A model generated the notes under the pieces. The model saw only the letters and a list, made by a program, of their open reading frames with translations. It had not been told where the DNA came from and did not search any database. 64,000 nucleotides of DNA from Salinirubellus salinus (GTDB taxonomy: Archaea; Halobacteriota; Halobacteria; Halobacteriales; Haloarculaceae): contig NZ_CP104003.1 of assembly GCF_025231485.1 (NCBI RefSeq), positions 3,859,960 through 3,923,959 of the forward strand, written 5' to 3'. Shown here piece after piece: positions 7,043-40,673 of the stretch. The position numbers and the translations under genes are program-made. Position 1 is the stretch's first letter. Each line of letters starts with the position of its first letter.

Positions 7043-7296
7043 CCGCCGACACCCGTGTTCGCGGTCATAGCTGCCGTCTCGGAGGCAGCGTGCTTTGCTC
7101 TTGTGGCGGTGTCCCGAGACTCCATCGGTCCCGGCCCGCACCGGCGGTCGTCCTCGTCCGCGGGGCCGGGCAGCCGGTCCGAGTCGCTCTCCTCGAACCA
7201 CTCGCGCTTCGGCCGGAAGGTCGCCACGGGTCCCCGGGTTCTGCCCACCTCTTCGCCTTTCCTCCGTGTGCCGTCTCCCTCGTCGTGCGCCGTGCT

Positions 7297-7313
7297 GTTC
7301 CGTAACAGGGAAC
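7297..7313. promoter_or_regulatory. Palindrome GTTCC-N7-GGAAC, copy 1
   Basis: GTTCCGTAACAGGGAAC. The outer arms match two better copies at 7495 and 11948 with identical spacing; the centre is not symmetric. It is a candidate operator half-site pair. Confidence 0.4.
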
Positions 7314-7494
7314 GACAGGTGCCGGGTCGAACGGCCGACGAGCCGTCGGCAGCTCCGGATGGGTGGGCGTGGACTGCTCTGCCGGTCGTCTGCTGCTGTC
7401 CGTCTGTGGGTGCGTCTCCGCTTCGTGCCGGCCCGGCGGCGCGTACTACCACACCGAGTGGTCGACGGGGTCCTTCGTGCTCGTCAAGCAGTGG

Positions 7495-7511
7495 GTTCCG
7501 CATCGCGGAAC
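7495..7511. promoter_or_regulatory. Palindrome GTTCC-N7-GGAAC, copy 2
   Basis: GTTCCGCATCGCGGAAC has 7-bp arms around ATC. It is followed by GAC, as is the copy at 11948. It lies about 185 bp upstream of the TATA-like box of the aldehyde oxidoreductase gene. Confidence 0.5.
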
Positions 7512-7696
7512 GACTGGAATGACAGACGATGGCGTCCGTCACACTAGCGAGGACGGGCACGTCGGGTGTCAGCACGGCGGCTCCGTCGCCTGACACCCCT
7601 CGGCTGTCCCGGATGGACGAGTTCGAAGACGACGAATCGGGTCGGGATGGTAGTCCAGCCGACCGTTCCCCGCCACCGGGTCAACCCACCGTTGTG

Positions 7697-7706
7697 CTTA
7701 ATATCC
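7697..7706 (+). promoter_or_regulatory. TATA-like box of the aldehyde oxidoreductase gene
   Basis: CTTAATATCC lies 21-30 nt upstream of the ATG at 7727. This fixes the start at MLRSKGP and argues against longer frames. Confidence 0.65.
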
Positions 7707-7726
7707 GTGCTAGGCATCTACTGCCC

Positions 7727-9397
7727 ATGCTTCGTTCCAAAGGCCCACTCCTCAGCGTCGACCTCGAGACCCATTCGGCCAGCGAGGAGAACGTAGACGC
7801 TGTCCTCGAGTCGTTCATCGGCGGTCGAGGGGTCGGGACGAAACTCGCGTTCGACCGTATCCCGTTCGACGCCGACCCGTTCGGGCCGGAGAATCGACTC
7901 GTGTTCGCCACCGGGCCGCTGCAGACCTCCCAGATGAGCTTCACCGGCCGGACGAGCGTCACGGGGCTCTCACCGCTCACGAACGGGCTTCTCTCTTCGA
8001 ACGCCGGCGGTTTCGTCTCCCGGCACCTCGCCGACACCGGCTACAGCGCCGTCGAGCTCGCGGGCGAGAGCGACGACCTCGTCGCCGTCCACGTCCGCGA
8101 CGACGGCGTGGACGTCGAACCGGTGCCCGAGCTCGCGGGCGCGACCGTCCCCGAGGTCGACGCCGCGATGGCCGAACGCCACGACATCGGCGAGGACCAG
8201 CTCGTCGTCGTCGGGCCGGCCGGCGAGAATCGGGTCCGGTTCGCCTCGCTCATGACGAGTGAGACTCGTGCGTTCGGTCGTGGCGGCCTCGGGGCCGTCC
8301 TCGGTGCGAAGAACGTCAAGTGCGTCTCGTTCGGTGGCGACTCCGCTCCCGACATCGACATCGCCCCCGTCCAGTCCGAGGTCCACCGCGACGCGGCGAC
8401 CTCCGACAGCATCATGAAGGAGCAGGGGACGACGAGCGTCACCGACCTCGCGAACGAGATCGGGGCGCTTCCCACGCGGTACTTCGAACGCCTCCAGTTC
8501 GACGGTGCCGAGGGGATCAACGGCGACACCGTCGCGACGAAGAAGTACAAGAAGGGGACCTGTTCGCAGTGCGCGTTCGCGTGCAAGCTCCCGACGCGTG
8601 ACGAGGCGACGGGACTGGAGACCGAAGGCCCCGAGTACGAGACGGTGATGGCGTTCGGTTCGAACCCGATGGTCGACGACGTGGTGTCGGTGATGAAGTC
8701 GAACAAGCTCTGTGACGACTTCGGGATGGACACCATCTCCTGTGGCGACGTGATCTCGGCGTATCTCGCGTCGGAAGACGAGTTCGGCAACAGCGAGTTG
8801 ATCCACGAACTCGTCGAGCAGATCGCCCACCGCGAGGGTGTCGGCGACCTGCTCGCCGAGGGGGTCCACCGCGTGCACGAAGCGCTGGGTGTCGAGGACT
8901 GGTCGGTGAAGGGGATGGAGTTCTCCGCGCACGACGGCCGCAAACTCAACGGGCAGGGCCTCGGCTTCGCCACCGCCAACCGTGGCGCCGACCACATGTA
9001 CTCGACGTTCTACGCCTACGAGTATCCGCTCGTCAGCGGTGACCTCGCGTTCCCGCCCGAGGGGCTCGAGGACAAACCGGCGAAGTTGGTCGAACTGGAG
9101 AACAAGCGCGCGCTCGAAGACTGCGGCGTCGTCTGTCGGTTCTCCCGCGGCATCATGACCGACGAGCGGTTCGAGCAGCTGTTCGACGACGACTTCGAAT
9201 CCCTGCTGGCCGTCGGCGGTCGCGTCGTCGAACTCGAACGGTACTTCAACAACGAACGCGGCTTCGACCGGAGCGACGACCGGCTCCCGTACGACCTGCC
9301 CGGCTTCGACGCCGCCCTCGACGCCTACTACGACGCACGGGGGTGGAACCGCGACGGCACGGTCCCCTCGGATGTCGCCGGCGGGACCGCAGACTGA
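7727..9397 (+). CDS. Aldehyde ferredoxin oxidoreductase family protein (tungsten/molybdenum enzyme)
   Basis: The 556-residue protein has the family order. The N-terminal pterin-binding domain has SVDLETHSASEE, FIGGRGVGTKLAFD and FTGRTSVTGLSPLTNGL. GRGGLGAVLGAKNVK follows, and then the [4Fe-4S] ligands CSQCAFAC, with the later cysteine in EDCGVVCRFS. Members oxidise aldehydes to acids with ferredoxin as acceptor and bind a tungstopterin plus one cluster; they act in the cytoplasm. The length is slightly below the usual 600 or so. The gene has its own promoter and converges on the MBL pair with a 21-bp gap. Its substrate is not evident; aldehydes formed by the surrounding catabolic enzymes are plausible. 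Confidence 0.93.
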   Translation: MLRSKGPLLSVDLETHSASEENVDAVLESFIGGRGVGTKLAFDRIPFDADPFGPENRLVFATGPLQTSQMSFTGRTSVTGLSPLTNGLLSSNAGGFVSRHLADTGYSAVELAGESDDLVAVHVRDDGVDVEPVPELAGATVPEVDAAMAERHDIGEDQLVVVGPAGENRVRFASLMTSETRAFGRGGLGAVLGAKNVKCVSFGGDSAPDIDIAPVQSEVHRDAATSDSIMKEQGTTSVTDLANEIGALPTRYFERLQFDGAEGINGDTVATKKYKKGTCSQCAFACKLPTRDEATGLETEGPEYETVMAFGSNPMVDDVVSVMKSNKLCDDFGMDTISCGDVISAYLASEDEFGNSELIHELVEQIAHREGVGDLLAEGVHRVHEALGVEDWSVKGMEFSAHDGRKLNGQGLGFATANRGADHMYSTFYAYEYPLVSGDLAFPPEGLEDKPAKLVELENKRALEDCGVVCRFSRGIMTDERFEQLFDDDFESLLAVGGRVVELERYFNNERGFDRSDDRLPYDLPGFDAALDAYYDARGWNRDGTVPSDVAGGTAD

Positions 9398-9418
9398 CAG
9401 ACGGTCGGAGCGCCCGAC

Positions 9419-10177
9419 TCAGGGGGCGCTCGCCGCGGCCGTCTCGGCGATGGCCTCGACGGCGCGGTCGAGGTACGCGTCGATGGTCGACGCGCCGACG
9501 ATGGGGTTGCCGTGGACCGGCGCCCACACCTCGACGTCGTACGTGTCGACCAGTTCCTCGAACGCCCCGCGCATCTTCTCCGCGTCGAGGTACTTCACGA
9601 ACGGGAGTGCGTCCTCGTTGTACGCGCGGATGTCGTCGACGCTCGGGAGGTCGTCGACCGAGCGGCAGACCACCCGACAGTCGCCGGGCCAGTGGTAGTG
9701 CCCCATGTCCGCGACGAACATCGTCTTCGAGCCGTGGTCGTACACCCACATCGAGTGGGCGGCGTCGACGAGCGGCGGCCACGGGAACGAGAGTGTCCGG
9801 CCGCAGATCTCCCGCGTCTCGTCGTGCATCACGCCCGTCGAGGGGCCCATCCCCAGCGCCTCGGGCGACGCGGAGGTACCGCTGAAGGAGGTGTAGAGGT
9901 CGAAGTCCCAGCCCTCACGGAACGCCCGCGCGTTGGCGACGTGCGGGAGGTCGTAGTGACTGAACACGGCCGCGGCGACACCGGCGTCGCCCACCACCTC
10001 GCCGATACGCTCCCGGAGCACGTCCTGGTGTTCGATCGCCCCCGTCTCCACGAGCACGTACCCCTCCGGGGCGTCGACGAGGTACGGCGAGATGTGGTGG
10101 TGGCGCTCGGTCATCTCGTAACACTGGTCGACCCAGTAGACGCCATCGGGAAGCTCGATGGCTGGCGTCTCGGACAT
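9419..10177 (-). CDS. Flavodiiron-like MBL-fold protein, second gene of pair A
   Basis: A 252-residue single-domain MBL-fold protein. The usual HxHxDH motif is replaced by SHYDLPHVAN (His, Asp, Pro, His). Later metal residues follow the flavodiiron order: His in VDAAHSMWVYD, Asp in TMFVADMGHYHW and His in WAPVHGNPI. There is no flavodoxin domain. It closely parallels the product of the gene at 28147. It lies 2 bp after the gene at 10180, so the two are surely one operon and may form a complex. The start MSETPAIEL is chosen because the longer frame overlaps the upstream gene with Arg-rich sequence. A redox or hydrolytic role on a small substrate is possible; neither is shown. Confidence 0.88.
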   Translation of the reverse strand: MSETPAIELPDGVYWVDQCYEMTERHHHISPYLVDAPEGYVLVETGAIEHQDVLRERIGEVVGDAGVAAAVFSHYDLPHVANARAFREGWDFDLYTSFSGTSASPEALGMGPSTGVMHDETREICGRTLSFPWPPLVDAAHSMWVYDHGSKTMFVADMGHYHWPGDCRVVCRSVDDLPSVDDIRAYNEDALPFVKYLDAEKMRGAFEELVDTYDVEVWAPVHGNPIVGASTIDAYLDRAVEAIAETAAASAP

Positions 10178-10179
10178 GG

Positions 10180-10989
10180 TCACTTCAACTCCGCGAGCCG
10201 GCCGCCGGTCGTGATCATCTCGACGACGGTCTTGCTCAGCTCCAGGTGTTCGACGGCGTCCTCTCGGATGACGACACCGTGTGCGGGCGCGAGTATCTGT
10301 GGGTCGTGGTCCTCGATGAGTGCGTCGATGGCCCGGTACACCGCCTCCGGGTCGCAGTACTGCAGCCACCGGAGCGCGCGGGCCTGCATCTCGATGATGC
10401 GTTCGGCGGTCACGGGGACGTCGAGTTCGTCGTTGAACCGTAGACACTCGCCCTCGACGTGGAGCGACCCCATCCAGTCGGCGGTGAACAGCGCGCCGGA
10501 CTCGCGTTCTTTCATCCAGATGTGGAACGCCGTGTCCGGGAACGCCGCCTCGACGAACTCGACGACGTAGCCGCCGAGGTCGACGGTGTCCCCGACCTCG
10601 ACCTTGCGGCCCCGGTCGAGGTAGTAGAGTTCCTCGCCCCGGCCGTACGCCGAGGAGAGGAGTTCCGCGTCCGGGTACGCTCGGAGGATGGCGTTCGTGT
10701 TCCCCGCGTGCGGTGCCTCGGGGTGCGAGGGGACGACGTAGTCGAGGCCGTCCTCACCGACCAACTCCTCCAGTTCCGACAGGAGGAGGTCACGGGCGCC
10801 CGGCGAGACGGTGTCGTACAGCAGCGTCCGCTCGCCCTTCACGAGATAGGCGTTGTTGCAGACGTGTATCGAGCGGTCGGGGTCGTACCACGTCGGCGGT
10901 TCGTCGCGGTCGCGGAACTCCGCGTCCATGACGGGCTTGTCGATACACTGCTGTATCTGGTATATCTCGGGACCGATTCGTCGTGCCAT
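10180..10989 (-). CDS. Flavodiiron-like MBL-fold protein, first gene of pair A
   Basis: The 269-residue protein starts MARRIGPEIYQIQQCIDKPV and continues with the flavodiiron-like opening VCNNAYLVKGERTLLYDTVSP. The metal motif is SHPEAPHAGN, where flavodiiron proteins have SHtEpDHsG, so the Asp ligand is replaced by Pro. The remaining positions are present: His in TAFHIWMKE, Asp in LFTADWMGSLH, and His in LAPAHGVVI. It has no flavodoxin part. It is about the same size as, and clearly related to, the gene at 27341, and each is followed by a second MBL gene. The start at 10989 is the first Met before the conserved region. It is divergent from the carboxymuconolactone-decarboxylase-like gene at 11090. 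Confidence 0.88.
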   Translation of the reverse strand: MARRIGPEIYQIQQCIDKPVMDAEFRDRDEPPTWYDPDRSIHVCNNAYLVKGERTLLYDTVSPGARDLLLSELEELVGEDGLDYVVPSHPEAPHAGNTNAILRAYPDAELLSSAYGRGEELYYLDRGRKVEVGDTVDLGGYVVEFVEAAFPDTAFHIWMKERESGALFTADWMGSLHVEGECLRFNDELDVPVTAERIIEMQARALRWLQYCDPEAVYRAIDALIEDHDPQILAPAHGVVIREDAVEHLELSKTVVEMITTGGRLAELK

Positions 10990-31738: not shown

Positions 31739-32734
31739 TCAGTCGGCCGCTTCGACCGTCACACGGGGGTCGATGTAGCTGTACAGCAGGTCGATGGCCC
31801 AGTTGCCCAGCAGGATGAAGACCGCCAGCAGCAGGAAGATGAACTGGACGACAGCGAAGTCACGGCCCAGCACGGCCTGCACGAGCGCCTGCCCGATGCC
31901 CGGCCAGTTGAACACGACCTCCAGCAGGACGAGCCCGCTCAGCGCACGGGTCATCGCGATCGGGTAGAGCGTGAGCGCCGGCAGGCTCGCGTGCTTCGCG
32001 AGGTGCCGGTAGCGGTTGAACTTCGGCAGCCCGGTGATGCGCTGGTAGTGGATGAAGTCCTGGCCGAGCACCTCGACCACGCTCGTCCGCATCACGAGCG
32101 CCGGCGTGTTGATGTACCGGAGGACGATGACGCTGAACGGCAGGATGTAGTGGAGCGCGAAGTCCTGCGACGTGTACGGCCGCCACCACGGTAGTCCTTC
32201 GAACTTCCCCGCGTTGATCGGCGAGAGCATCCCCGAGGAGGGGAACCAGTTCAGCCAGCTCGAGAAGATGACGATCATGACGATACCGAGGAAGAAGATG
32301 GGCAGGGTCCCCATCACGACGGTCCCCACGATGCCGAACCGCTCGATCCGGGTGCCGCGCTTGCTCCCGAGGATGGTGCCGATGACCGCGCCGATGACGT
32401 ACCCGAGGGTGATGGCGGGAGCGACCAGGATGAACGTGTTGAAGATCTTCATCTGGACGAAGTCCCACACCGGTCCGCGAGCGCCGAGCGAGAAGCCGGC
32501 GTCGAGCGTGAGCAGGTTCGCGATGTAGCTGAAGTACTGGACGTACAACGGCTGGTCGAGCCCCCACTTCCGAACCAGCTCCTCTGCCGTCTCCGGCGGG
32601 ATCCCTTCGTACAACATCAAGTCGATGAAGTCCCCCGGCATCAGCCGGAAGAAGAAGAACAGGAACGTGATGATCATCCAGAGGAGGAACACCGTCTGGA
32701 TCGACCGGTACACGAAGTAACGGCGGCGGCTCAT
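31739..32734 (-). CDS. Oligopeptide-type ABC transporter permease (DppB-like)
   Basis: The 331-residue protein has six or so membrane segments and the DppB/OppB layout: YRSIQTVFLLWMIITFLFFFFRLMPGD at the start, an external loop with GLDQPLYVQYFSYIANL and the ATPase-contact loop RITGLPKFNRYRHLAKHASLPAL. It is the last gene of the operon 35764-31739, 57 bp after the ATPase gene at 32792. It would form the membrane channel with the permease at 34850. Confidence 0.93.
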   Translation of the reverse strand: MSRRRYFVYRSIQTVFLLWMIITFLFFFFRLMPGDFIDLMLYEGIPPETAEELVRKWGLDQPLYVQYFSYIANLLTLDAGFSLGARGPVWDFVQMKIFNTFILVAPAITLGYVIGAVIGTILGSKRGTRIERFGIVGTVVMGTLPIFFLGIVMIVIFSSWLNWFPSSGMLSPINAGKFEGLPWWRPYTSQDFALHYILPFSVIVLRYINTPALVMRTSVVEVLGQDFIHYQRITGLPKFNRYRHLAKHASLPALTLYPIAMTRALSGLVLLEVVFNWPGIGQALVQAVLGRDFAVVQFIFLLLAVFILLGNWAIDLLYSYIDPRVTVEAAD

Positions 32735-32791
32735 CGGTCGGCCACCTCCACTGCTGCGGCGGTCGGGTGACGGCTCCTGCTGGTGGCCCGT

Positions 32792-33823
32792 TCAGTCATC
32801 GCTCGGTGCCTCCACTCCTTTCGCTGCTGCTTCGTGTTCCTCATGGTCGTAGTACAGGTGACAGGCGACGTGGTGCCCTTCCTCCTGGATGAACGCCGGG
32901 GTCCTGTCACAGATGTCCATCCGCTCGGGACAGCGCTCGCGGAAGCGACACCCTTCACCGAGGCCGATGGGGTCCGGCGTCGACCCCTCGAGGGTCGTCC
33001 GCTCCCGGTCGTGGTTCGGGTCCGGGATCGGGATCGCGTTGATGAGCGCCTTCGAGTAGGGGTGCTTCGGGTTCTCGAGGATGTCCATCGTCGGCGCCGT
33101 CTCGACGATCCGGCCGAGGTACATCACGTTGATGTCGTCGCAGATGTAGCTGACCGTCGAGAGGTCGTGCGAGATGTAGATGATGGAGAGGTCCATCTCC
33201 TCTTTCAGTCGCGCGAGCAGTTTCAGGATGACTGCCTGCGTCGACACGTCCAGCATCGACACCGGCTCGTCCGCGAGGATGACGTCCGGTCGCAGGACGA
33301 GCGCCCGTGCGATGGCCACCCGCTGTTTCTCCCCGCCGCTGAGTTGGTCGGGGAAGCGGTCGATGTACCGCTCCGGCGGCCGGAGCTCGACCTGTTCGAG
33401 CGTCTCCTTGATCCGCTCCTCCTTGTTCTCGATCCCGTGGACGTCGAGCGGGATCTCGAGGGTGTTCCGGACCGACATCTTCGGGTCGAGCGAGTCGAAC
33501 GGGTTCTGGAAGATGACCTGCACCTCCCGGCGGAACTGCTTCCAGTCCCGCTTGTCGAACGTCGAGATGTCGCGACCCTTGAACGTGACACTGCCGCCGG
33601 TCCCGTCGATGAGGCCGAGTAGCACCATCAGGAGCGTCGTCTTCCCACAGCCACTCTCCCCGATGACGCCCTTCGACTCGTTCTCGTGGAGCGTGAACGT
33701 GACGTCGTCGACCGCCTTGACCGTCTCGGGCGTGCGACCCAGGAGCGTGTCGAGGATCCCCTGACTCTGGTCGAAGTACTTCTCGAGGTTCTGCACCTCG
33801 AGCAGTGGCTCGCGGTCGGTCAC
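32792..33823 (-). CDS. Oligopeptide-type ABC transporter ATPase (DppF-like)
   Basis: The 343-residue ATPase has Walker A GESGCGKTTLL, signature LSGGEKQRVAIARAL, Walker B VILADEPVSMLD and the H-loop in YISHDLSTV. The C-terminal oligopeptide-transporter domain has a cysteine group (CRFRERCPERMDICDRTPAF) that usually holds an iron-sulfur centre or metal in this family. It starts at a GTG overlapping the stop of the preceding ATPase gene (GTGA), so the two are coupled. Confidence 0.94.
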   Translation of the reverse strand: MTDREPLLEVQNLEKYFDQSQGILDTLLGRTPETVKAVDDVTFTLHENESKGVIGESGCGKTTLLMVLLGLIDGTGGSVTFKGRDISTFDKRDWKQFRREVQVIFQNPFDSLDPKMSVRNTLEIPLDVHGIENKEERIKETLEQVELRPPERYIDRFPDQLSGGEKQRVAIARALVLRPDVILADEPVSMLDVSTQAVILKLLARLKEEMDLSIIYISHDLSTVSYICDDINVMYLGRIVETAPTMDILENPKHPYSKALINAIPIPDPNHDRERTTLEGSTPDPIGLGEGCRFRERCPERMDICDRTPAFIQEEGHHVACHLYYDHEEHEAAAKGVEAPSDD

Positions 33824-34845
33824 GGCGACTCACCCCCGGGGGTCGTCTCCACGGGTCCCTCGTAGAGCTCGTGTACCTCGTTCCAGCGGAAGCAGGCCGC
33901 CCGGTGCTCGCCCGCGGTGTCGACCGCCTCGAGCGTCGGTGCACGCTGCCGGCACTCCTCGACGGCCCACGGACACCGGTCGACGAACGTACACTCGGCC
34001 ACCTCGCCGAGGTGCTGTGGTGGCGACCCCTTGATGGTCCCGAGTTCGCGTTTCGGGTCGCGGACGTCCGGGAACGCCTCCTGCAGGAGGATGGCGTACG
34101 GGTGTCGGGGCGTGTTGAACACGTCGTAGACGTCGCCGGACTCGGCGAGCTGTCCACCGTGCATGACGCCCATGCTGTCACACGACTCGAACACGAGGCT
34201 GATGTCGTGGGTGATGAGCAGCATGCTCATCTCGTACTCCTCCTGCACCCGGTCGATGTACTTGAAGATCTGGTCCTGCATGATGACGTCGAGCGCCGTC
34301 GTCGGCTCGTCGGCGATGATGAGCGAGGGGTTCAGGAACAGCGCGAGCGCGATGATGGCCCGCTGTTGCATCCCGCCGGAGAACTGGTGGGGGTACTCCT
34401 TCACCCGCTCGGGCTTGAGGCCGACCGTCTCGAACAGCTCTTTGAACCGCTCGAGCGCCTCCTTCTTGGTCATGTCCGTGTGGACGTCGGCTAGCTCGAG
34501 CGCGTGTTCGTCGATGCGTTTCAGCGGGTCCAGGCTGTTCATCGACCCCTGCGGGATCTGTGAGATCTCCTTCCACCGGATCGTCTTGTTCCACTGCGCC
34601 TCGGTGAAGTCCTGGATCTCCTCGCCGCGGTACTTGATGGTGCCAGAGACGACCTCGCCGTTGTCGTCGAGCCCGCCGATCATCGCGTTGACGATGGTGC
34701 TCTTTCCGCACCCCGACTCGCCGACGAGCCCGAAGTACTCGCCCTCGTCGACGGTGAACGAGACGCCCGAGACGGCGGTCAGCGGTCCCTCGCTGGTCCG
34801 GTACTGGATGGTGAGGTCCTCGACTTCGAGTAGTGGTTCGCTCAT
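33820..34845 (-). CDS. Oligopeptide-type ABC transporter ATPase (DppD-like)
   Basis: The 341-residue ATPase has Walker A GESGCGKSTIV, signature FSGGMQQRAIIALAL, Walker B LIIADEPTTALD and the H-loop LLITHDISLV. Its C-terminal domain has the four-Cys pattern CTFVDRCPWAVEECRQRAP. The start MSEPLLEVEDL lies 4 bp after the stop of the permease gene at 34850 (tight spacing). Together with the gene at 32792 it makes the ATPase pair that drives import. Confidence 0.94.
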   Translation of the reverse strand: MSEPLLEVEDLTIQYRTSEGPLTAVSGVSFTVDEGEYFGLVGESGCGKSTIVNAMIGGLDDNGEVVSGTIKYRGEEIQDFTEAQWNKTIRWKEISQIPQGSMNSLDPLKRIDEHALELADVHTDMTKKEALERFKELFETVGLKPERVKEYPHQFSGGMQQRAIIALALFLNPSLIIADEPTTALDVIMQDQIFKYIDRVQEEYEMSMLLITHDISLVFESCDSMGVMHGGQLAESGDVYDVFNTPRHPYAILLQEAFPDVRDPKRELGTIKGSPPQHLGEVAECTFVDRCPWAVEECRQRAPTLEAVDTAGEHRAACFRWNEVHELYEGPVETTPGGESP

Positions 34846-34849
34846 CGAA

Positions 34850-35764
34850 TCACCCCGCCTCCACGAACGCGGTGTCACCAGCCTGTCCGGTCACGATCTC
34901 CTCGTACTTGCGGCCGAACATGAACGCCGAGAGGACGGTCAACGAGATGAGGACCCCCGGTGTGAGTGACCACCAGAAGTTCTCCACGTAGCCGTTCGAG
35001 TAGGCGTTGCGGATCATGATCCCCCACGAGGGGACGAACGGGTCGGAGACCCCGATGAACGCCAGCCCCGCCTGCACGAGGATGGAGAAGCCGATACCCA
35101 GCGAGAAGAACAGGATCATCATCGGTGCGATGTTCGGGATGAAGTGTTTGCGGACGATGGCCAGCGACCCCATCCCGGTCGCTCGGGCCGCGAGGATGAA
35201 GTTCCGCTCCTTTATCTGGAGCACCTGTGACCGGAGGACGCGGGCGCTACTGCGCCAGAGCAGCGCCCCCAACACGAGGATGGTCGTGAAGAGACCGAAG
35301 CCGAACAGCGCGAGCAGGACGATGGCGAACGGGATTAGCGGCACCCCGTAGACGAAGTCGGTGAACCGCATCAGGACGTTCTCTACCCAGCCACCGAAGT
35401 ACCCGGCCGTCACGCCGATGCTGGTACCGATGGTGATGATCATCGCCCCACCGAGCAACCCCGTGATGATCGTCGGCCGGGCCCCGATGATGAGTCGCGA
35501 GAGGACGTCCTGTCCGAGGTGGTTCGTCCCGAGCGGGTGCGCCGCCGACGGTGACGACGCGATGAGGAGGAAGCCATCTTCGTCCTTCTGTGTCTCCGTG
35601 TAGTCGTAGGGGGCGAGGTAGGGCCCGAACGCGGCGAGGAAGATGACGAACGCGAGGAAGCCGGCGTACAGGGCGATCTCCTTGTCGTTCGTTATCACCG
35701 ATATGACACCTACCAGCCGGTCAGGGAGGGATGGAATTGCATCACTCACGGGTATGGCTGACAT
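34850..35764 (-). CDS. Oligopeptide-type ABC transporter permease (DppC-like)
   Basis: The 304-residue protein has six membrane segments and the DppC/OppC pattern: HPLGTNHLGQDVLSRLIIGARPTI, the contact loop ARATGMGSLAIVRKHFIPNIAPM, and a C-terminal FIGVSDPFVPSWGIMIRNAY. It is the first gene of the four-gene transporter operon. The start MSAIPVSDA at 35764 follows a TATA-like box by 24-36 nt; the frame continues further upstream but crosses that promoter. No binding protein is inside the operon; the one at 38829 is the natural partner. Confidence 0.93.
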   Translation of the reverse strand: MSAIPVSDAIPSLPDRLVGVISVITNDKEIALYAGFLAFVIFLAAFGPYLAPYDYTETQKDEDGFLLIASSPSAAHPLGTNHLGQDVLSRLIIGARPTIITGLLGGAMIITIGTSIGVTAGYFGGWVENVLMRFTDFVYGVPLIPFAIVLLALFGFGLFTTILVLGALLWRSSARVLRSQVLQIKERNFILAARATGMGSLAIVRKHFIPNIAPMMILFFSLGIGFSILVQAGLAFIGVSDPFVPSWGIMIRNAYSNGYVENFWWSLTPGVLISLTVLSAFMFGRKYEEIVTGQAGDTAFVEAG

Positions 35765-35787
35765 TGCCGCATCCTTTCCGTGTCGGG

Positions 35788-35800
35788 GTAAATAAGTTTC
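35788..35800 (-). promoter_or_regulatory. TATA-like box of the ABC transporter operon
   Basis: The minus strand reads GAAACTTATTTAC, 24-36 nt before the ATG at 35764. Confidence 0.65.
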
Positions 35801-35897
35801 GCCTCTGGGAACGCGCCTGCACCGGACGTGCACCGAATCGGTCGTCGCTTCGACATTCGGGCGAGACACGACGTGGGTCGGTCACTGCCCGCTGAGA

Positions 35898-37936: not shown

Positions 37937-38659
37937 CTACGGCGCGACGTCCGGAATCCAGTCGTTCACTCGCACGTCGAACTGTGTCACGAGCCGCCGG
38001 TTCGACGCCGGATCGAACAGCTGGGCGGCGTAGAACCCCTCCTCGCGGACAGACGGGTACGGGTTCGGCCCCTGCACGTCGTCGTCCACCGTGCCGACGG
38101 TCGACGACCACACCGCCGTCCCCTCGAGTGAGGCCCCGAGTTTCGACTCGACCGCGTCGAGGAACGGCTCGGGTTCGAGGAACGTCGACAGGCTCGCGAC
38201 CTGGTACGGCTCCCACTCGCCGCCCGACCCGGTCCAACTCCGGAGTTCGATGTCGTCCCACCCGTCGCGGACGTCGTCGAGCACCCACACCTCGTCGCCG
38301 ACGACGCTCGGAACCGTGGAGTTGCCGACGTGGAGGTCGAACCCGGCGGCACGGCGGTCCTTCGCGTCGACGCCGACGCCGACGTACACCGCGTCCTCAA
38401 CAGGGAACAGGACGAACTCGGCCTCGCCGTAGGTGTTCCGGGTGTTCACCCAGACCTCGCTGTCGGTGGTGAGGAGGTGCGCCGGCTTGGGAAACACCAG
38501 CGGCTCGGGCCCCTGGTCGTGCTGGGCCCACCCGTCGCGGTGTTCTTCTGCGGGGGGCTCGCGCCACGCCCGACCGCAGTTGACGATCCGGGAGACGCAG
38601 AGCGTCTCCCGAGCGGTACTGCCGTCCCGGTGTCTGACAGTGACTGGCAGTTCGTTCAC
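37937..38659 (-). CDS. DUF2848 family protein
   Basis: The 240-residue protein matches DUF2848: GRAWREPPAEEHRDGWAQHD near the N-terminus, the VFPKPAHLLTTD stretch, EAEFVLFPVEDAVYVGVGVDAKDRR in the middle and YQVASLSTFLEPEPFLDA later. The activity is unknown; the fold is thought to be related to fumarylacetoacetate hydrolase. The start is set at GTG 38659 (VNELPVTVRHRD), because an ATG at 38686 sits inside the TATA-like box. It lies between CoA-transferase, transporter and amidase genes, so a role in breakdown of an organic acid or amide is likely but inferred. Confidence 0.82.
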   Translation of the reverse strand: MNELPVTVRHRDGSTARETLCVSRIVNCGRAWREPPAEEHRDGWAQHDQGPEPLVFPKPAHLLTTDSEVWVNTRNTYGEAEFVLFPVEDAVYVGVGVDAKDRRAAGFDLHVGNSTVPSVVGDEVWVLDDVRDGWDDIELRSWTGSGGEWEPYQVASLSTFLEPEPFLDAVESKLGASLEGTAVWSSTVGTVDDDVQGPNPYPSVREEGFYAAQLFDPASNRRLVTQFDVRVNDWIPDVAP

Positions 38660-38681
38660 GGAAGAGCGCTCGTGAGAGCCG

Positions 38682-38693
38682 AGCATATACCTT
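38682..38693 (-). promoter_or_regulatory. TATA-like box of the DUF2848 gene
   Basis: The minus strand reads GAAGGTATATGC, 23-34 nt before the GTG at 38659. It contains the rejected upstream ATG. Confidence 0.6.
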
Positions 38694-38828: not shown

Positions 38829-40673
38829 ATGTCATCCAGTGACAAGGGTCCTGACGTCGACCGTCGGCAACTGCTGAAGTTGGTCGGCGCGACGGGTACG
38901 ATCAGCGCACTCGCCGGCTGTAGTGGTAACGGCGGCGGTGACGACGGTGGTAACGGCGGCGACGGTGGTGACGGTGGCGACGGCGGTGGCGATGGTGGGA
39001 ACGCGCTCGGCGAACGCGTCCCGCCGCTCGTCATCGAGTTCTGGTCCGGACACCCGGTCTGGGACAACACCGTCCCGCTCGTCCAGCAGCACATCTCCAA
39101 CGCGCTGGATCACGAGGTACAGGTCGTTCCCGTCGAGGTGGCGAAGATGGTATCCGACGCGTACAACGACCGGCGTAACTATCACTACGTGACGTGGGGT
39201 GTCACGCCGTCCGTGACCACGCTCGACCCCGGGCAGTACTGGCTCACCGACCTGGTGCTCACGGCCGCCGGGGCCAACAACCGGCCGAGCGCGATGAACT
39301 ACGCGAGCTGTGAGTTCACCAAACTCGCCTACGAGCAGGCGGTCGCCGGCGACCCGGAGGAGCGTCGCCGCATCCTCGGCGACTCGATGGTCGTCTTCAG
39401 TGAGGACCGCCCGGCCGTGAACCTCATCGCCCGTGACATCTTCGGCGGGGCGCGAACCGACCGTGTCGACGCACAGGGCGTCGGTCAGATGGGTAACCAG
39501 GCGTGGAACTCGACGTTCTTCACCTCGACTACCCCCAACTCCGGTGACCGCTGGGTCTACGGGAGCGACGACACCGGCTACTGGGAGCGGACGAACCACC
39601 TGATGATCTCGGCAGGTGCCATCGGCATCTACCAGGTGCTGTCCCACTCGCCGTTGCTGCGATACGACGAGAACTGGGAGCTGACGAACGAGCTCGCCGC
39701 CGACTACACCGTCGAGGACGACTCGCGGAAGTACACGTTCGAGCTGCTCGAGGACGCCGTGTTCCACAACGGCGACCCCATCACCGCGGAGGCGGTGAAG
39801 TTCACGATGGAGACCATCGAGAACAACCCGCTCCCCCAGCGGACGACGCAGAACTACGAGTCGATCACCGTCGTCGACGACAAGACGATCGAGTTCACGT
39901 TCGCACAGCCGAACCCGTCGTTCCTCACGGCGCACGTTCCGACGTGGGGCATCCTCCACCCGCCGACGTGGGAGGGGATGGACGACCCGGCGAACTTCGA
40001 GCCGGAGCCGCCGATCGTCGGCTCCGGGCCGATGCAGGTGACCTCGTTCACGCAGAACCAGACGGTCGTCTGGGGCCCCCACCCCGAGGGACACCCGAAC
40101 TACGACGTGAACCACGGCTTCGTCCACCAGCGCTTCCAGAACGCCGAGACGAAGAAGCGGGCGCTGCGTGAGGGCGAGATCGACGTCGCCGGCAACATGA
40201 CCGGTGCGGGTCTCGAACAGGTGAAGAGCGCGCTCGGCGACGACCTGAAGCGGCTCACCTCCCGCGGCCACGGGGCGTGGCACCTGGCGGCCTCGTACCC
40301 ACAGGCACCCGTGCGATTCAACGCGTTCCAGGACGCGGTCGGGAAGTCCATCAACCGCAACGAGATCAATCAGGCCGTGTACGCGGGCAACGGCAACCCC
40401 GTGACCACGAGCGGACCGTACGTGGACAACAACCCGTTCTACCCGGAGGACAAGAGCCGCGTCCACAACTACACCGACAACCTCGACGGCGAGCCGGAGG
40501 CGGCGCGGCAGGTCCTGCTGGACGCCGGATGGGGCTGGGACGACGACGGCAACCTGCGCTACCCCGAGGGCACCGACACCGCACCGCTGTGGCCCGAGGG
40601 CGAGGTGCCGAGCGCCGACGAGTTCCCGTGTCTGAACGAGGACGGCGAGTTCGACCAGAACTGGGAACCCTGA
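38829..40673 (+). CDS. ABC transporter substrate-binding lipoprotein, family 5 type, apparently circularly permuted
   Basis: The 614-residue protein has a Tat signal (DRRQLLKLVG, residues 11-20), lipobox LAGC (Cys31) and a Gly/Asp-rich linker (residues 34-57). Residues about 66-225 look like the C-terminal lobe of peptide/nickel-binding proteins: PLVQQHISNALDHEVQVVPV, EFTKLAYEQAVAGDPEERRR and VFSEDRPAVNLIARD. Residues about 258 onward then look like the usual N-terminus: LLRYDENWELTNELA and VFHNGDPITAEAVKFTMETI. The chain ends with AARQVLLDAGWGWDDDGNLRYPEG, which in standard proteins leads into the part found here at the front. It would be anchored outside the cell and feed the ABC transporter 3 kb away (31739-35764). 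The ligand is unknown. Confidence 0.9.
   Translation: MSSSDKGPDVDRRQLLKLVGATGTISALAGCSGNGGGDDGGNGGDGGDGGDGGGDGGNALGERVPPLVIEFWSGHPVWDNTVPLVQQHISNALDHEVQVVPVEVAKMVSDAYNDRRNYHYVTWGVTPSVTTLDPGQYWLTDLVLTAAGANNRPSAMNYASCEFTKLAYEQAVAGDPEERRRILGDSMVVFSEDRPAVNLIARDIFGGARTDRVDAQGVGQMGNQAWNSTFFTSTTPNSGDRWVYGSDDTGYWERTNHLMISAGAIGIYQVLSHSPLLRYDENWELTNELAADYTVEDDSRKYTFELLEDAVFHNGDPITAEAVKFTMETIENNPLPQRTTQNYESITVVDDKTIEFTFAQPNPSFLTAHVPTWGILHPPTWEGMDDPANFEPEPPIVGSGPMQVTSFTQNQTVVWGPHPEGHPNYDVNHGFVHQRFQNAETKKRALREGEIDVAGNMTGAGLEQVKSALGDDLKRLTSRGHGAWHLAASYPQAPVRFNAFQDAVGKSINRNEINQAVYAGNGNPVTTSGPYVDNNPFYPEDKSRVHNYTDNLDGEPEAARQVLLDAGWGWDDDGNLRYPEGTDTAPLWPEGEVPSADEFPCLNEDGEFDQNWEP

Follow-up and report, generated by a model that had tools for sequence, protein, structure and literature searches.

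The substrate-binding protein (SBP) gene at 38829–40673 of the window, i.e., the whole 64,000-nucleotide stretch of Salinirubellus salinus DNA analyzed here, encodes a topological variant of the family 5 SBPs and not a canonical member of this family: judging by sequence, both the core and the C-terminal segment of the canonical proteins are present, with their order swapped. The first-pass annotation had proposed a circular permutation relative to family 5, and this proposal was borne out, given that profile matches in swapped order, collinearity once the chain is rotated, conservation of the order among relatives, and swapped matches to solved structures together show such a rearrangement at the sequence level. 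The explanation that best accommodates all the observations, and that we consider very probably correct as a whole, is a natural permuted family 5 (cluster C) SBP that feeds a DppBCDF-type importer and represents a recurrent, widespread architecture.

The open reading frame (plus strand, 614 amino acids) starts with ATG at 38829, ends with the stop codon at 40671–40673 and contains no internal stop; a 615-amino-acid ORF on the opposite strand is taken to be a shadow ORF that reflects the high GC content of the coding DNA. The protein begins with a Tat-type lipoprotein signal (residues 1–31, 38829–38921), read from the sequence as the twin arginines R12R13 followed by a lipobox ending in AGC31, and continues with a Gly/Asp-rich linker (residues 32–59, 38922–39005) and, at residue 60, the motif LGERVP that is conserved in an alignment of ten relatives. 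The canonical C-terminal segment follows (residues 67–211, 39027–39461) and is separated by the junction of the old C-terminus with the old N-terminus (residues 212–238, 39462–39542) from the canonical N-terminal two thirds, the SBP_bac_5 core (residues 239–568, 39543–40532). The remainder (40533–40673, up to and including the stop codon) comprises, according to the same alignment, the end of the core (to about residues 577–584) and a tail past the cut with the motif WPEGExPxxDEFPC. The chain had initially been thought to end at AGWGWDDDGNLRYPEG; in fact, it continues for about 38 residues beyond this point. When one simple pattern was applied to both kinds of proteins, a twin arginine followed by a lipobox-like motif was detected in 64 of the 75 permuted ORFs and in 59 of the 72 canonical ones.

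A Pfam search identifies SBP_bac_5 (PF00496) in residues 285–577, which correspond to positions 2–287 of the 368-position profile, with an E-value of 1.1e-42 and a score of 146.9 bits (curated cut-off 32.4); the match stops at profile position 287, so that nothing downstream of the core corresponds to the last part of the model. Among the NCBIfam equivalogs for DppA, OppA, NikA, GsiB and SapA, none scores above its curated cut-off (the best is Opp5A_nikA, 71.5 bits against a cut-off of 600), and both databases match the core only. An hhalign comparison of three canonical family 5 proteins from the same genome with ten sequences of the window family (including the window protein) locates both parts: canonical positions 2–391 align with residues up to 568 (E 4e-38), where the first ~66 canonical columns are signal and linker and the domain part starts at residue 239, and canonical positions 396–530 align with residues 67–211 (E 2e-10), i.e., in swapped order. 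A full-length HMM built from canonical sequences only (53 sequences, 462 positions) gives the same picture, with the C-terminal part of the model (315–448) matching residues 67–211 (E 8e-10) ahead of the N-terminal part (27–325), which matches residues 273–584 (E 1e-50). Taken on its own, the match of the second segment in the window protein is moderate (E 2e-10 to 8e-10) and is missed by Pfam alone. The early reading that the C-terminal lobe comes directly after the Gly/Asp linker and that the N-terminal part follows it in the chain is thus upheld, and the two domain matches predicted in swapped order are indeed found with the canonical-only HMM, whereas Pfam alone yields a single match. A collinear alignment of the full chain with family 5 was looked for and none was found. 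When the signal and linker are removed and the chain is rotated in silico, the full-length HMM produces a single match of 209 bits covering positions 27–448 of 462, compared with 166 bits for the best single match in the native chain.

The same approach was applied to the broader set of ORFs, using, to avoid circularity, a C-lobe HMM built exclusively from 47 non-redundant canonical C-lobes. Of 76 ORFs with permuted geometry, 75 match this HMM upstream of the core, whereas all 66 others match it downstream (only in part in L010 and L138). The exception among the former, L167, lacks a C-lobe match and is recognized as swapped by the full-length HMM. With a fixed database size, the upstream regions of all 75 permuted ORFs score better than 1e-3 (the worst at 8e-6), and none of the 1575 shuffled or reversed decoys does so. 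In native order, the full-length canonical HMM detects a swapped second match in 75 of 75 permuted ORFs; after removal of the signal and linker and rotation, 72 of the 75 show one collinear match, and the remaining three do not yield a single collinear domain. The gain upon rotation of the trimmed sequences exceeds 20 bits in 72 of 75 cases (range −9 to 96). Simple rotation of untrimmed sequences, scored by single-domain HMMER, is better in only 47 of 75 cases with a median gain of 0.3 bits, and these scores are uninformative because the match is broken up by the signal and linker.

Relatives sharing this segment order along the full length are found in Halorarius litoreus (75% identity), a Halobacteriales MAG (44%) and four Halorubrum (32%). 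A search of 391 Halobacteria genomes with the window-family profile, in which up to three candidates per genome were scored, yields 55 matches at E≤1e-60 in 49 genomes; of these, 49 matches from 44 genomes span nearly the whole profile, and the remaining six belong to a more distant group that is likewise permuted. The S. salinus genome itself encodes eight family 5 proteins, three of which (the window protein, L059 and L060) are permuted in the same manner, and one, L010, is cut elsewhere; in L060, the swap is visible by Pfam alone (profile positions 288–362 upstream of 2–275). In ten further genomes with 61 family 5 genes, 25 genes are permuted, one (L138) is of a second type, and 35 are canonical, one of them interrupted; the C-terminal part lies upstream in all 25 permuted genes, and in 13 of these Pfam reports a swapped second match. 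The genes were classified by hand after merging second Pfam matches (from 74 rows to 61 genes in the ten genomes, and from nine to eight in S. salinus). Altogether, 28 of the 69 family 5 genes in the 11 genomes are permuted like the window gene and two are cut at the second point, where 28/69 is not an unbiased frequency given that the genomes were chosen after permuted matches had been seen. The interrupted gene, L192 (G036:C1, about 410100–411850), is split by a TAG stop into ORFs of 396 and 187 amino acids; counted as canonical and located a few kb from the permuted L167, it looks like a decaying gene.

The permutation is not confined to the order Halobacteriales. A permuted family 5 protein is encoded in L212 (G566), from another order of the same phylum. 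This protein (L212:7733–9496) lacks a lipobox and possesses a C-terminal tail which we take to resemble the PGF-CTERM sorting anchor, in which case it would be anchored by the opposite end of the chain. A Neorhizobium relative matches 464 plasmid records, 48 of them with at least 80% query coverage, and those listed include Neorhizobium, Nitratireductor, Microvirga, Roseomonas, Ketogulonicigenium and Maritalea along with many haloarchaea. The order was verified in three bacterial sequences (L161, L162 and L163), which indicates that Alphaproteobacteria carry the same permutation. A tblastn match in Roseinatronobacter that seemed to span the junction was found with segment HMMs to be a canonical protein; hence tblastn coverage alone is no proof, and the claims of permutation rest on segment HMMs or blastp.

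The phylogenetic data indicate that the permutation arose more than once: permuted proteins repeatedly stand next to canonical sisters in the trees, and a single clade is rejected. A quick tree of rotated sequences (147 sequences reduced to 110 rows by dropping those with more than 70% identity, with the window protein represented by its Halorarius orthologue L002) places 51 of the 55 permuted rows together, albeit weakly, and four elsewhere. In a more careful, unrooted tree of 45 hand-picked rows, seven changes of segment order are needed, and the starred branches require at least four changes of the first type and two of the second. Forcing the 20 first-type rows into one clade costs 573 log-likelihood units (p-AU 1e-100); this group was defined with the first tree already available, and long branches are present. 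The alternative that survives best is a single permutation of ancient date, after which the canonical sisters scattered over the tree would have reverted. It draws on the facts that the root of the tree was not inferred, that the careful tree gives little support to the unity of the main permuted clade, and that counts of changes do not separate gain from reversal. Apart from the AU test, it is opposed by the canonical order of all solved family 5 proteins among the matches listed and by the variation of the cut points between lineages, and we consider it improbable. In most of the 75 permuted ORFs, the moved segment starts at positions 300–330 of the 462-position canonical HMM, whereas L173 and L171 are cut earlier, before a helix that the other permuted proteins keep at the C-terminus.

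A second type of permutation is seen in L010 (G000:C1, about 2401837–2403063, minus strand) and L138 (G054). In both proteins, the cut lies inside the C-lobe, so that the last part of it (HMM positions from about 94–102) is found behind the signal peptide and the remainder is C-terminal, as confirmed with halves of the C-lobe HMM. Returning to recurrent permutation as the preferred reading, it seems likely, with appreciable room for doubt, that the haloarchaeal family 5 SBPs are a hot spot of natural permutation with at least five events and two or three cut points, affecting about four in ten of these proteins in the genomes studied; a possible reason is that docking to the importer depends on how the lobes are ordered with respect to the anchor. 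In this hot-spot reading, most of the cuts would fall in the loop leading into the canonical C-terminal segment.

Slightly less probable than a single ancient event is a chimera of two different SBP genes, one contributing a C-terminal fragment placed in front of the other, which is itself truncated at its C-terminal end. Such an origin was weighed by the authors of the study of the permuted Treponema pallidum protein TpMglB-2 for that protein (PMC4990184), and for the window clade the search did not turn up a close canonical sister, so that its segments are not directly traceable to one parent. In independent lineages, however, the two segments resemble one and the same canonical protein to a similar degree. 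Pairwise blastp comparisons of permuted and canonical sisters, with both segments matching one partner, show 34–56% identity: for the two segments, L060 is 41.6 and 42.7% identical to L194, and the corresponding values are 43.9 and 42.2% for L173 and L158, and 38.5 and 33.7% for L148 and L193. The proteins with the second cut point behave in the same way (L010 and canonical L158, 42.0 and 48.1%; L138 and canonical L160, 55.8 and 42.1%), and in the same comparison L171 matches L193 in the core only. Furthermore, the identities of the core and the C-lobe co-vary within the main clade (Spearman 0.80, 51 rows), which also speaks against a chimeric origin.

Far less plausible is the possibility that the first 225 residues are an unrelated added domain and the rest is a truncated family 5 protein. 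This would fit the restriction of the Pfam and NCBIfam matches in the window protein to the core; it is contradicted by the canonical-only profiles, which match the segment, and by the solved structures. A profile of the first 185 residues of the window family identifies 13 PDB chains at E≤1, all of them named peptide-, nickel- or similar transport-binding proteins, and the matches cover C-terminal parts of solved SBPs only, with the exception of the 229-residue chain 3o6p; the best match is to residues 364–489 of DppE (8ay0, E 2.5e-5). In a phmmer search, the window protein from about residue 270 aligns with solved chains from about residue 30. The Neorhizobium relative displays both matches to a single structure, B. 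subtilis AppA (1xoc), with residues 206–534 aligned to 23–347 (E 1.6e-35) and the moved segment, residues 41–172, aligned to 370–496 (E 4e-7). No PDB chain with the permuted order was found among the matches listed (the best 60 of 114 and the best 60 of 100). AlphaFold models built from a seven-row alignment are too poor to be used, with a mean pLDDT of 41 for the mature window protein and 38 for the first 185 residues; the strand-helix order in the latter looks plausible but, at a pLDDT of 38, is not counted as evidence. An assembly or annotation artefact, for which nothing speaks but the oddness of the segment order, has a negligible probability given that the order recurs in the 49 full-length matches from 44 genomes, in H. 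litoreus, and in Neorhizobium and Nitratireductor plasmid records.

In the proposed permuted architecture, the Tat-type signal would export the protein and the lipidated cysteine would anchor it. The chain would adopt the usual two-lobed Venus flytrap fold, entering it at the loop ahead of the segment that is C-terminal in canonical proteins and running to the old C-terminus, from which a short join would carry it to the old N-terminus, so that it would end where it began. Both termini and the anchor would then lie on the lobe that does not carry them in canonical proteins, and the lipid anchor accordingly on another face of the protein. Such a gene might have originated through tandem duplication and in-frame fusion, after which the first copy would have lost its core but kept its signal, and the second copy would have lost its C-lobe; among the 147 ORFs, none has complete C-lobes both before and after the core, as an intermediate would. 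Tandem copies are encountered: in L080 (G399), two permuted SBP genes (7144–8970 and 8780–10948) precede one importer, and in L076 two permuted SBPs accompany two importers. These copies are recent duplications.

The window contains, all on the minus strand, genes for a DppB-type permease (31739–32734; BPD_transp_1, 1e-27; homologues adjoin permuted SBPs), a DppF-type ATPase (32792–33823) and a DppD-type ATPase (33820–34878), both with ABC_tran and oligo_HPY domains, and a DppC-type permease (34850–35869; BPD_transp_1, 2e-21), the true start of which is probably inside the ORF. The SBP gene is located 3 kb away on the opposite strand, with genes for enoyl-CoA hydratase, CoA-transferase and a DUF2848 protein in between. 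In the window family, 26 of 31 loci encode all four DppBCDF homologues, separately recognized; of the other five, three have the permeases and one over-long ATPase-like ORF, one has a distant ATPase only, and one is at a contig end. The importer of H. litoreus is arranged as in the window, and in the bacterial loci genes for two permeases and two ATPases come after the permuted SBP gene. Given this linkage in relatives, and because a search with the core HMM found no second family 5 gene in the window, the SBP is assigned to the 31739–35869 importer, to which it most likely delivers a captured solute.

Neighboring genes encode enoyl-CoA hydratases, a CoA-transferase, an amidase and an amidohydrolase, and another gene reads like an acyl-CoA dehydrogenase, a name given from sequence only. 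As a guess, these genes point to a small organic or amide solute, not a bulk dipeptide. The DUF2848 gene (37937–38686, minus strand), which lies between the importer cluster and the SBP gene, is kept at the same place in H. litoreus (87%), and its product may act on the imported solute. In L161 and L162 (Nitratireductor and Roseomonas plasmids), the permuted SBP gene is adjoined by genes for hydantoinase B/oxoprolinase, an M28 peptidase and an IclR-type regulator, a hint at amide or hydantoin-like solutes. In E. coli DppA, R383 and D436 hold the ends of the dipeptide, according to PMC12136057; by residue numbering, both would fall in the moved part.

The wider, recurrent pattern is a more interesting result than the single gene. 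Most of the natural circular permutations on record happened once, long ago, and were recognized from structures. In this family, sisters of either order that share about 42% identity occur several times, so that the effects of chain order, anchor position and folding path on a Venus-flytrap receptor and on its importer can be compared directly; in this sense, nature has run an experiment on protein architecture. The pattern also exposes a blind spot of annotation: Pfam and NCBIfam cover only part of the permuted SBPs, which in the records listed are named plainly “ABC transporter substrate-binding protein”. In 1999, Fukami-Kobayashi reportedly described a domain dislocation between type I and type II periplasmic binding proteins, with the strand order changed in the evolution of the fold; that change is said to be within each lobe and at the superfamily level, and to involve no whole-chain cut and join among close homologues. 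No description of permuted family 5 proteins was found among the papers listed by searches of the open PMC literature, from which most subscription papers are absent; PMC2588589 deals with domain versatility.

The canonical family 5/cluster C SBPs (DppA, OppA, AppA and NikA; PF00496) share with the window protein the core and the C-terminal segment as well as lipoprotein export and a nearby DppBCDF-type importer. The window protein differs from them in that its segments are swapped, the old termini are joined, and the new termini would be in the opposite lobe. The nearest published precedent found comes from another cluster: TpMglB-2 (Tp0684) of T. pallidum, designated “Type Ic / Cluster Bc”, is a circularly permuted, tethered ABC SBP that is reported to bind ligand and change conformation (PMC4990184). 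The window protein is not of the cluster Bc type, its Pfam match and named PDB matches being family 5 peptide/nickel-type proteins. TpMglB-2 represents the type I sugar-binding cluster, whereas the family 5 permutation, unlike that of TpMglB-2, appears in both archaea and Alphaproteobacteria, repeatedly and with more than one cut point.
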